Source: an uncultured Treponema sp. (GTDB lineage: Bacteria; Spirochaetota; Spirochaetia; Treponematales; Treponemataceae). From it: a stretch of 52,841 bases of DNA. Below the pieces are notes generated by a model, which did no database searches, was not told the DNA's origin, and was given only the letters and a program-made list of their open reading frames with translations. The stretch is taken from contig CAMJZA010000020.1 in NCBI GenBank assembly GCA_946410085.1, positions 1 through 52,841 on the forward strand. Reading direction: 5' to 3'. Of the stretch, positions 5,001 through 18,483 are shown piece after piece; within the stretch, counting starts at the first letter, position 1; the number at the start of each line of letters is the position of its first letter. The position numbers and the translations under genes are program-made.

Positions 5001-6645
5001 GGGGGTAAGCGGTAGCTTCCTGACCGAAACCGGTGCCCTGAGCGTCAGGATCAAGGACGACAAGCCCCTGCGGGGCAGTGCCGAAGGAACGATAAAGCAT
5101 TCCAGAATCAATTTGACGATACAGGATATCCGGGGAGATTTCTCGCAGTTCCACGATCTGTTCAGCACCGAGATGTTCGGCCTCTACAAGGGGCTTGCAT
5201 CCGGTTTCATCACCATACGGGGGATGACCAGCGATCCGACGCTCGACGGAACCCTACTCCTGCGGGGACTGGAAATCGGTGTTCCCGCCGTGACGCCTGA
5301 CCATCTTACGGCGAAGAACCTGCTGCTGACCTGTTTCGGCCAGAATATCGAGATTCCTTCCTGCCGCCTCCAGGCCGGAGAGGCACGCCTTGACCTTGCG
5401 GCTTTGCTCCAGCGGGAGCGCTGGGGAATGGGGTCGCTGGACGTTTCTCTCAAGACGGTCGATGAAGACCGCTTTGCCGTCAAGATGGCGGTCCCGATGA
5501 CTGACATCAAGGGGCAGGCTGCGGTAGATGCGAAGATGCATCTTGAAGATTCTGTCCTGCAGACCGACATCAATGCATCGCTGGAGCAGGGAGAGGTCAG
5601 CATCGTGACTATGCTGACGAGTCTCCGGCCCATCGGAACGCTCGTGAGCCTTTCCGGCGGTACCGTCAGGGAAAAGAAGGAGCGGGACGACGGGGAGCCG
5701 GGCCTGTGGGAATCGCTCAGGCGGTCAAAGGACGTCATCATCAACGTCAACGCAACTGTTGGCCGCAAGGTTGACCTGGTGATCCAGCCCCTGATTCAGG
5801 CTATGGTCAATCCCGGTACGAAATTTGAGTTTTCCCTTGACACGTCCCAGTCTTCGTGGAGCATGAAGAGCGATGTCGGCCTGCGCGGCGGGCATTTGAC
5901 CTATTTGAGCCGGAATTTCTACCTGCGGGAGGGCCAGGTACTGCTGAACGAGAACGAGAAGTCCTTTAACCCCCTTATAACGGCCCGGGCGGAGACAAAG
6001 GAGCGGGATTCCGACGGTATCGTCGTTACCTTGGGGCTTGAAGCCGTCAAGCAGACCTTTTCTGCCTTCTCTCCCCGCGTTTATTCAGTACCGGCCCGGT
6101 CAGAGGCTGAAATCATGGCAATGCTGGGTCAGGTCGTCTCGGGCGATTCTGACAATGCCGGAAGCCTTGCCCTTGCGGGGCTCGATTACGGACTCCAGTT
6201 CGCCGTGTATAAAAAGATGGAAAACGCATTGCGTGATTTGCTGAATTTTGATATATTTTCTGTACGTATGAACGTCCTGCAGAATGCCCTGAACTACGGG
6301 CGTTCCGGATCAAGGCGTTTATATAACGGAACTTTTACCAGTTCCAGCAATCCGCTGGGTAACTTTTTGGATAACGCGAGTGTTTACATGGGTAAATACT
6401 TCGGTGATTCAATTTATGCCGATGCTCTGCTTCAGTTTACCTATGATGAGAATTCTGAGCTGAGCGGAGGCGGAGTACTTGGCAGCGGAATCGTATTCAG
6501 ACCGGAGATAGGTGTTGAATTTGAGGCACCCTTTGCAAATATACGATGGAATTTTGCTCCAGACCTTGAACCTTTACGGTACGGAAACGTGCCTGATATA
6601 GTGGCGGGGAATTCCATCACGCTGTCATGGAGATTTACGTTTTAA
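2002..6645 (+). CDS. tamB: TamB/AsmA-like translocation and assembly protein (DUF490)
   Basis: 1547-residue inner-membrane-anchored periplasmic protein of the TamB/AsmA-like bridge family, thought to carry lipids or help outer-membrane protein assembly across the periplasm. It has one N-terminal membrane helix (about residues 10-27), then about 1,450 residues of repetitive beta-rich sequence, a C-terminal TamB/DUF490 region (about 1100-1547), and a terminal LSWRFTF with the aromatic last residue typical of outer-membrane-associated beta proteins. The start is set by GGAG 4 nt before ATG. It lies directly upstream of bamA, as TP0325 does before TP0326 in T. pallidum as I recall it; this supports TamB over a generic AsmA protein. 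Confidence 0.85.
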   Translation: MKKSRFIKTAAAFLIFLLILFVSLSFLRPVYREIDGRMRQAESRFLTEFSESTGLGLSYDSISPSLLTGITIRNICIRDIRNGETILTVKKAVFRYRLLSLLLRDFDHAFSVLVISDVQGDLSSEKIASIRRCLAESRERKQKGKDRVQGESGGERHPPEPPAEQEADAAPVAVEINGLAAGEFLSDGQKAFINRILTGLPAKIQCKNIAVRYAWKGKLLDFRLGKLSFDKKRDQNIGAAAHSGSIMFRLAGGATAAVQFSLNGTVVPGFSGSSAMLNLSPYAAADYTLYKTQFLVRYADSRIVARSTQRLLPYSIAAEFDVADRELSADLELKGVSVLSLLKLPLKSDRVRELAESPLTLKANGFLDVKTRRFSWSGEGEGSLPESLLKAEELVTFKASGTEQRLTVDFLSVTGKTLNASVSGTLDLVTKIPDCSLRVDSFLLPNGNRLAFSASVQANGRTVHARIPRLLLGEAAFSAITADVRVNSGSAPFSFSLQNDSHPAYRDASLAGNGTFYWTGGRKLTASLSLHSLFADTAARVALFFLDAKKAVKLDRYMGRLSSFVADGSLSFSTDFKDAGYELSSFTVRDCSKEGRELSLSLSGTKSSVSVRQLRLDYGPVHLKAEADALLALADGELSFTTSMDVNGILYDFKGAFAKGRWFNLTGSYGIDILTNLENGAAGSAKILSFPFSIKNNDFTFSFDSEFSVKSLQDFIVDIKSLQLEQQKGKLNRSPKVALAGKLDSMGFIIDSLSYSDINSSNGGKGYILWNLHDGILESATMSIGMTNEFTNEKITLAGDFTNPLRAPLSRDTLLKDCYFSILSDIRGFPLMRFIPNQYADDTFNGSIIASGTIENPYVSVKLENFSVQVGTKPVIINGNAELLEGDLFIPDLDISWGNMRLTDFTTDLDLTTFNGAASAEYSIRVFGSRYIKIPLKLSVRNADEHQERHSLLERFVPAQFVVDVDADVSCKGLMNGSIPLKGLVTRDGRDIRFATDDTLGVSGSFLTETGALSVRIKDDKPLRGSAEGTIKHSRINLTIQDIRGDFSQFHDLFSTEMFGLYKGLASGFITIRGMTSDPTLDGTLLLRGLEIGVPAVTPDHLTAKNLLLTCFGQNIEIPSCRLQAGEARLDLAALLQRERWGMGSLDVSLKTVDEDRFAVKMAVPMTDIKGQAAVDAKMHLEDSVLQTDINASLEQGEVSIVTMLTSLRPIGTLVSLSGGTVREKKERDDGEPGLWESLRRSKDVIINVNATVGRKVDLVIQPLIQAMVNPGTKFEFSLDTSQSSWSMKSDVGLRGGHLTYLSRNFYLREGQVLLNENEKSFNPLITARAETKERDSDGIVVTLGLEAVKQTFSAFSPRVYSVPARSEAEIMAMLGQVVSGDSDNAGSLALAGLDYGLQFAVYKKMENALRDLLNFDIFSVRMNVLQNALNYGRSGSRRLYNGTFTSSSNPLGNFLDNASVYMGKYFGDSIYADALLQFTYDENSELSGGGVLGSGIVFRPEIGVEFEAPFANIRWNFAPDLEPLRYGNVPDIVAGNSITLSWRFTF

Positions 6646-17517: not shown

Positions 17518-18048
17518 ATGGAAAACCTGACGAGGCGTGAAATAGAGCGCTGCTTCCTTGCCCTGATCCGGGAGAAGGACGTTGAGAAGGTTACGGTCAG
17601 CGACATCGCTGCCAGATGCGGCATAAACCGGAATACCTTCTATTATCATTTTCATGACATTCCTTCCCTGCTTGAAGCCCTTTCCCGGGAGACGGTGGAG
17701 TATTTTTTCCGCGGCATGCCCCCGGACATCTCCCTGTCGGAGGCTCTCGGCCGCTTTTATGCCTGTCTGGAGGAGAACCGGCAGCTTATCGGGGGCATGT
17801 TTTCCCTGTCCCGGCGGAACGGGGACCGGAAGGGCTTCATCGGCAGCATCTGCGGTTCGGTCGCCTGCTGGCTCGTGGGCATCATCGGGGGAGAGCAGCG
17901 GCTTTCGAAAGTCCAGGCAGACGTCGTCACCGAAATCCTCAAATGCGAGTTCATCGGGCAGATCGTCCAGTGGGTGGATTCCGGCTTTTCCTATGACATG
18001 AAGGAGTACGGCCTCAAGATATGCCGGGAGATAAAGACCTTCATCTAG
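17518..18048 (+). CDS. TetR/AcrR-family regulator, probable regulator of fakB-fakA-plsY
   Basis: 176-residue repressor-type protein. The N-terminal helix-turn-helix is clear (VTVSDIAARCGINRNTFYYHF, about residues 24-44); the C-terminal ligand domain resembles the TetR_C_8 type found near DAK2/FakA-like kinases. It is divergent from fakB with 132 bp between start codons, and the gap holds two palindromes, so control of the fatty-acid uptake operon is a reasonable inference. A likely effector would be a fatty acid, acyl-phosphate or related lipid, but nothing in the sequence proves this. There is no ribosome-binding site before the ATG. Confidence 0.88.
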   Translation: MENLTRREIERCFLALIREKDVEKVTVSDIAARCGINRNTFYYHFHDIPSLLEALSRETVEYFFRGMPPDISLSEALGRFYACLEENRQLIGGMFSLSRRNGDRKGFIGSICGSVACWLVGIIGGEQRLSKVQADVVTEILKCEFIGQIVQWVDSGFSYDMKEYGLKICREIKTFI

Positions 18049-18061
18049 TGAACGCGGCAGC

Positions 18062-18193
18062 TGTTCAACACGGTGCACGGCGGGTGTTCAACACGGTGCA
18101 CGGCAGCTGTTCAACACGGTGCACGGTGAGTGTTCAACACGGTGCACGGCGGGTGTTTAACATGGTGCACGGTGAGTGTTTAACAGTGAACAC
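18062..18193. repeat. 23-bp tandem repeat array (5 copies plus a partial)
   Basis: Copies start at 18062, 18085, 18108, 18131 and 18154, with a partial at 18177. The core is TGTTCAACACGGTGCACGG followed by four variable bases (CGGG, CAGC, TGAG, CGGG, TGAG). Most copies contain the odd palindrome GTGTT-C-AACAC and the palindrome GTGCAC. The partial copy ends in GTGTTTAACAGTGAACAC, itself an inverted repeat. The period is not a multiple of 3 and the array lies between the tetR stop and flbD, so it is non-coding, possibly an array of protein-binding sites. Confidence 0.9.
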
Positions 18194-18251
18194 TTCCGGT
18201 GGCCGGCACGGGGCTTTTTTCGTGAAAATCGCCGAAATCCTTGAAAAGCTC

Positions 18252-18280
18252 TTGACGCCTGTCGATTTATGGGTCAATAT
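18252..18280 (+). promoter_or_regulatory. Candidate flbD promoter
   Basis: TTGACG (18252-18257), 17-bp spacer, weak -10 CAATAT (18275-18280). The -10 ends 8 nt before the flbD ATG and no Shine-Dalgarno is visible. This would be the first promoter of the motility operon. Confidence 0.4.
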
Positions 18281-18288
18281 ATGCTATT

Positions 18289-18483
18289 ATGGTAGAAGTT
18301 ACGCGGTTGGATGGGAAAAAATACTGGATAAATCCGCATCAGGTCGAATACATGGAGCAGACACCGGACTTGACCCTTACCATGCTTACCGGCAAGAAAG
18401 TCGTTGTCCGGGAGAGCCCGGAGGAAGTCATAGACCGGATCGTCGCCTACCGGCGGCGCATAGGCATAAATCAGGAATTATAG
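18289..18483 (+). CDS. flbD: FlbD-family flagellar protein
   Basis: 64-residue FlbD (not the Caulobacter regulator of the same name), a small protein encoded before motA in spirochaetes and Firmicutes. Visible family features are VEVTRLDGKKYWINPHQVEYMEQTPDLTLTMLTGKKVVVRESPEEVIDRI. Its role is poorly known. Here it is the first gene of the flagellar operon; in T. pallidum flgE precedes it, whereas here the neighbour is a TetR gene and a repeat array. There is no ribosome-binding site, so translation may start from a leaderless message. Confidence 0.9.
   Translation: MVEVTRLDGKKYWINPHQVEYMEQTPDLTLTMLTGKKVVVRESPEEVIDRIVAYRRRIGINQEL

Follow-up and report, generated by a model that had tools for sequence, protein, structure and literature searches.

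The MIRU/VNTR elements of Mycobacterium tuberculosis are dispersed intergenic tandem repeats, with units longer than those described here and no constant core and linker design. At the phage lambda operators OR and OL, sites of 16-17 bp are separated by gaps of 6-7 bp, giving a centre spacing of about 23-24 bp, and are occupied by cooperative dimers; there are three such sites at two loci. The LTRR sequences of Anabaena/Nostoc PCC 7120 are short tandem repeats found in many intergenic regions over a limited taxonomic range, as stated where PMC2408588 cites Masepohl 1996. Here we analyse a 23-bp tandem array from an uncultured Treponema sp., for which the flagellar operon and the relatives likewise suggest a Treponema-like spirochaete, and the arrays related to it by sequence or by period.

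The repeat array between tetR and flbD

In the window, by which we mean the whole stretch of 52,841 nucleotides that was analysed, TRF assigned its best score to a tandem repeat of period 23 and 5.4 copies at 18062-18185. The array consists of five 23-bp units (18062-18176) and a partial sixth leading into a terminal inverted repeat. Units 1 to 4 (18062-18084, 18085-18107, 18108-18130 and 18131-18153, all on the plus strand) share the core TGTTCAACACGGTGCA, followed by the linkers CGGCGGG, CGGCAGC, CGGTGAG and again CGGCGGG, respectively; unit 5 (18154-18176, plus strand) carries the core variant TGTTTAACATGGTGCA and the linker CGGTGAG. The partial sixth unit runs into the short inverted repeat AGTGTTTAACAGTGAACACT (AGTGTT-N8-AACACT; 18175-18194, no strand assigned), which closes the array. 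For a MITE, terminal inverted repeats and a target-site duplication would be expected; beyond this one short inverted repeat, no alignable empty site was found, and the contig of the nearest relative, G173, stops before the site. The first-pass annotation had described five near-identical copies, each with GTGCAC, and both statements hold: the period by TRF is 23, with starts at 18062, 18085, 18108, 18131 and 18154, and GTGCAC occurs in 5/5 units. It overstated the frequency of GTGTT-C-AACAC, which was said to be present in most copies, as exact GTGTTCAACAC occurs in two of the five units and TGTTCAACAC in four. Its suggestion that bound proteins would line up on one DNA face is unsupported, because 23 bp corresponds to 2.19 turns and thus to a rotation of about 69 degrees per copy.

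Upstream of the array lies a gene for a TetR-family regulator (17518-18048, plus strand; Pfam TetR_N, E 5.8e-10), which stops 13 bp before unit 1. Downstream is flbD (18289-18483, plus strand; Pfam FlbD, E 2e-26), the leading gene of a flbD-motA-motB operon, preceded by a promoter-like element, TTGACG...CAATATA (18252-18281, plus strand), that begins 66 bp past the TRF array end at 18185. TTGACG is invariant in five species and the position of CAATATA is strongly conserved; a generic sigma-70 scan did not call the element at 18252-18281. The element is kept in four relatives and the array is absent in 3/3 of those whose upstream region was read; therefore either the array arrived later, upstream of a promoter that was already there, or it was lost in other lineages. 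About 8 nt separate the end of the element from the ATG of flbD, both in the window and in the relatives, and flbD transcripts may for this reason be leaderless.

A dispersed intergenic family in one genome

The genome-wide search for further copies that the first-pass annotation had called for returned a family. BLAST against the own genome, a draft of 134 contigs from a single strain of the species, gave 14 more places matching the array, and the 16-bp core gave 110 matches at two or fewer mismatches, against one for a reversed control pattern, a level well above chance. At least 21 related arrays were recovered, comprising 118 units, with the copy number differing among loci from 4 to 8 units and nearly all units in exact 23-bp steps. 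We observed directly that the arrays are dispersed and that all of them are intergenic (in gaps between genes predicted with a simple script), commonly between divergent genes. In a pattern search of the same genome, core matches outside the arrays came to about the chance number, and no single or paired units beyond chance were found there. Array orientation showed no consistent relation to GC skew, and a replication-strand bias was thus not seen.

A search of 199 other genomes of the genus with the window dimer pattern gave no match, and neither the viral nor the GTDB r220 contigs contained a strict degenerate dimer. With a relaxed dimer, these two contig sets gave 25 and 6 scattered matches in unrelated taxa; no organism matched showed a similarly dispersed family in the stretches inspected, and a phage collection had no match to the window array. 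On the evidence of these searches, the family is restricted to one species among the genomes tested.

The genes neighbouring the arrays share no common function. They include those for an MCP, secG with a P83/100 gene, mnmA, an Hpt protein, an acyltransferase, an SPFH protein and tRNA-His, as well as ribulose-phosphate epimerase, purL-type, MMPL, solute-binding and sulfatase-modifying-type proteins. Many arrays lie upstream of genes or between divergent ones, and about seven or eight of them have a strong promoter match (at least 10/12) no more than 130 bp away; at the Hpt gene, secG, the acyltransferase, the MCP and tRNA-His, the match lies 13-70 bp from the array. This distribution bears on the annotation's proposals that the array controls flbD/motA or binds TetR. 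Although the array stands between tetR and flbD, ahead of a conserved flbD promoter element, the twenty others lie beside unrelated genes without tetR, which adjoins only the array at 18062 (1/21), and at flbD the array is missing from close relatives. The array is not flbD-specific, since 21 or more unrelated intergenic loci carry it, an outcome that counts against such an element by the refuting condition set in the first-pass annotation. We consider local control, whether by the adjacent TetR protein with the array as its operator or by a dedicated flbD/motA regulator, the least probable of the readings and very improbable in itself. Nor is this an iteron array in the strict sense, to which the annotation had likened it, because neither a replication gene nor a neighbourhood resembling an origin was seen.

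Several arrays have larger duplicated flanks in common, indicating that they also move as passengers of segmental duplication. Arrays C1, C55, C53, C22 and C45c share duplicated flanks of 86-383 bp toward an HU-HIG/DUF4469 gene or its remnants, and the group C13, C49, C17a and C22 adjoins Rpn/PD-(D/E)XK-type genes. The own genome contains 14 matches to one HU-HIG/DUF4469 gene (L146:585-1157 and 5260-6036; L080; L079); the copies beside window-family arrays are truncated or remnants, and the intact C1 copy has no array.

The unit consensus, from column counts over the 118 units, is a 16-bp core, TGTTYANYRCNGTGCA, followed by a 7-bp linker that is GC-rich and variable. When arrays whose flanks are unrelated are compared, identity is 0.82 for the core versus 0.42 for the linker, where pooled linker composition predicts 0.34; inside arrays, linker identity is 0.61. 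Ten core positions (1-4, 6, 10 and 13-16) have an identical consensus base in 13/13 independent arrays, and the core contains an imperfect dyad, GTTCA-N6-TGCAC. A conserved core with a free linker in otherwise unrelated arrays is the pattern expected of a tandem operator array for a dimeric DNA-binding protein. Judging from this pattern, the core is probably recognised by something, because neutral divergence from one ancestor would wear down core and linker equally. A CRISPR array was rejected: the arrays of this family have no unique spacers, merely the 7-bp GC-rich linkers between cores.

The core might also be kept by mobilising machinery. The main rival to a binding array is a selfish or neutral dispersed repeat (MIRU-, LTRR- or REPIN-like), spread by a mobilising enzyme or by segmental duplication, tolerated only between genes and with no regulatory role, to which we give somewhat less than an even chance. 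In its favour are the missing single sites and the want of any common function among neighbours, and it agrees with a burst restricted to one species, with arrays carried on duplicated flanks and with the clustering of other array families by accessory genes. Against it, no dedicated transposase is linked to the arrays, and simple spread leaves unexplained a constant 22-23-bp period across unrelated sequences, described below. RAYT mobilisation in particular was not supported, as the sole Y1 transposase (Y1_Tnp, C3:72513) has its own, different hairpin ends and no nearby 23-bp units. This single IS200-like gene (L174, G000:C3:72513-72875) is located between CCCCGACGCTCTGCGTCGGGG-type hairpins.

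Arrays of 22-23-bp period with unrelated sequences

Non-coding tandem arrays in the order often have a period of 22 or 23 whatever their sequence, as seen both in relaxed pattern searches and in loci fetched otherwise. In 400 kb of own-genome stretches, picked regardless of arrays, TRF found ten arrays of period 21-24. Their sequences are distinct, most have a period of 22 or 23, and some coincide with long predicted ORFs that may be spurious. Genus relatives yielded three arrays of period 21-24 in 687 kb, and other genera of the family also yielded three, two of which lie within ORFs, in 470 kb; TRF found none in 100 kb of E. coli. The constancy of the period in unrelated sequences is, like the dispersal of the window family, a direct observation.

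Three own-genome 22-bp arrays (L220:13548-13756, L221:19019-19215 and L218:19408-19629) have different cores and a common AAGCC-type linker, which recurs as TAAGCCT in the palindromic 23-bp family f5; to judge by these sequences, there may be a modular exchange of cores and linkers. At L131:1057-1872 (G441), an unbroken array of 23-bp period extends over about 0.8 kb with three different palindromic cores in succession and an almost constant linker. In Fischerella sp. PCC 9431 (L106), several period-21 arrays of differing sequence occur in one 8-kb stretch, and cyanobacteria may have a similar fixed-period phenomenon of another length.

Family f5, from another family of the order, consists of near-perfect 16-bp palindromes, GTTCAnnnnnnTGAAC, joined by TAAGCCT linkers at a period of 23. 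Like the window family it combines a 16-bp core with a 7-bp linker, and its half-sites are GTTCA/TGAAC where the window family has GTTCA/TGCAC. This resemblance makes a common origin possible, if uncertain, because such a match could arise by chance among many arrays of period 23. Unlike the window array, which folds no better than shuffled sequence, f5 is palindromic and its arrays fold strongly (z -3.7 to -11.3).

Such folding would suit an RNA-level element, in which tandem hairpins act as terminator, attenuator or processing site of transcripts, and two arrays of the window family, C53 (z -5.1) and C17b (z -4.1), also fold better than shuffled. The window array itself has fold z-scores of -0.7 and -0.8 on its two strands relative to dinucleotide shuffles, and most others of its family likewise fold no better than shuffles on either strand. 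Across the 118 units, core positions T4 and C15, needed for pairing, form a near-invariant mismatch. The arrays precede promoters, nothing resembling a terminator was seen, and Rfam gave no match in eight array loci. We therefore regard a role in RNA as highly improbable for the window family.

Arrays of the same period and unrelated sequence also lie upstream of an orthologous HU-HIG/DUF4469 gene family in three species. Those upstream of such genes in G107, G012, G011, G173 and G214 are mutually different and unlike the window family; the closest relatives there of the C1 HU-HIG gene are those of G107 (54% identity) and G012 (48%). The HU-HIG assignment draws on Pfam PF14734, PF14848 and PF18291 across the alignment and on HU and IHF structures. 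Arrays occur upstream of 7/13 HU-HIG genes in the own genome (about five independent loci) and 6/28 in relatives, where 0.2-1.1 were expected, an excess that is large in relatives (6/28 genes, expectation 0.2) and moderate in the own genome. In a control with Rpn genes, arrays were found near 4/5 own loci and several relative loci. Because Rpn genes also have arrays beside them, the HU-HIG link is unspecific and singles out no one partner protein, and HU-HIG was rejected as the specific partner of the arrays. With the control positive and the genomes examined rich in such genes, the HU-HIG-side excess may instead reflect array-rich genomes and accessory regions. Repeats of period 24 also occur within Rpn-type genes (L317-L345), where they encode GLEQGLKQ-like C-terminal repeats; these coding repeats are distinct from the non-coding 22-23-bp arrays.

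A putative binding platform and its described counterparts

We give roughly even chances to the reading that the window array is a member of a set of at least 21 dispersed, species-restricted intergenic 23-bp arrays that form stacked sites for a dimeric DNA-binding protein beside promoters, and that it belongs to the wider 22-23-bp class. Each unit would present a 16-bp site for a dimeric, sequence-specific protein, and the 7-bp linkers would space these sites at 23 bp, with a step of about 69 degrees, allowing dimers to stack cooperatively along the DNA. The stacked sites would then form local cooperative binding platforms adjoining promoters, with a presumed effect on transcription, while slippage or recombination would alter and homogenise the copies inside an array. 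The family would sit within a wider genus class in which a period of 22-23 bp stays constant and the sequence is replaced from one species or locus to the next. HU-HIG proteins are candidate binders only. Of the first-pass proposal of a protein-binding array, the binding itself remains the best-supported reading, with a conserved core and an unconserved linker; flbD specificity and the one-face geometry fall away.

A binding constraint is favoured because the period is constant in unrelated sequences and the core differs from the linker in conservation. Counting against binding sites are the lack of lone or paired units outside arrays, unusual for a regulon, the lack of a common function among neighbouring genes and the presence of arrays beside both HU-HIG and Rpn genes. 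The constant period could also come from a copying mechanism instead of a protein footprint. More speculatively, and with a probability we put as low, there would be a genus-wide class of promoter-side arrays whose 22-23-bp length is fixed and whose sequence is replaced between species and loci, built and kept by a dedicated DNA-binding system of fast-changing specificity (HU-HIG being one candidate), a bacterial parallel to satellite DNA and the binding proteins that co-evolve with it.

The results suggest that these arrays are a widespread, fast-evolving kind of protein-binding DNA, not a flagellar-gene switch. Bacterial dispersed tandem repeats are usually described by their sequence; here length and placement appear conserved and sequence does not, which indicates a constraint that is physical or set by a protein footprint. 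Should the arrays control the genes beside them, promoters of unrelated housekeeping and accessory functions, namely those of tRNA-His, secG, the flagellar operon, a chemoreceptor and the Rpn and HU-HIG genes, would be coupled to one factor in one species, and this wiring would be replaced in sister species.

The window family has partial counterparts among described systems. Its site size, gap and spacing match the geometry of the lambda operators, with no homology claimed and a putative binder here, whereas it comprises at least 21 arrays of 4-8 units in place of three sites at two loci. Like the iterons of plasmid and phage origins, it is built of tandem direct repeats of about two helical turns each; unlike them, it has no replication initiator neighbour among those seen, and its array loci are spread through a chromosome-sized assembly and not confined to one origin. 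It resembles the REP/BIME/REPIN elements of RAYT transposases as a set of dispersed short intergenic repeats whose expansion is restricted to one species, but its units are not palindromic hairpins (most arrays fold close to shuffles) and none lies beside the single Y1 transposase. As in LTRR- and MIRU-like repeats, tandem direct repeats occupy many intergenic loci of one genome (21 arrays). The family shares its dispersed, intergenic siting and a copy number varying among loci with MIRU/VNTR, from which it differs in its shorter units and constant core and linker design. With the LTRR, as characterised in the cited account, it shares short tandem repeats in many intergenic regions of one genome and a narrow taxonomic range; relative to that account, it differs in sequence, has no hairpin requirement, combines a conserved core with a free linker and has a period that recurs with unrelated sequences in relatives.
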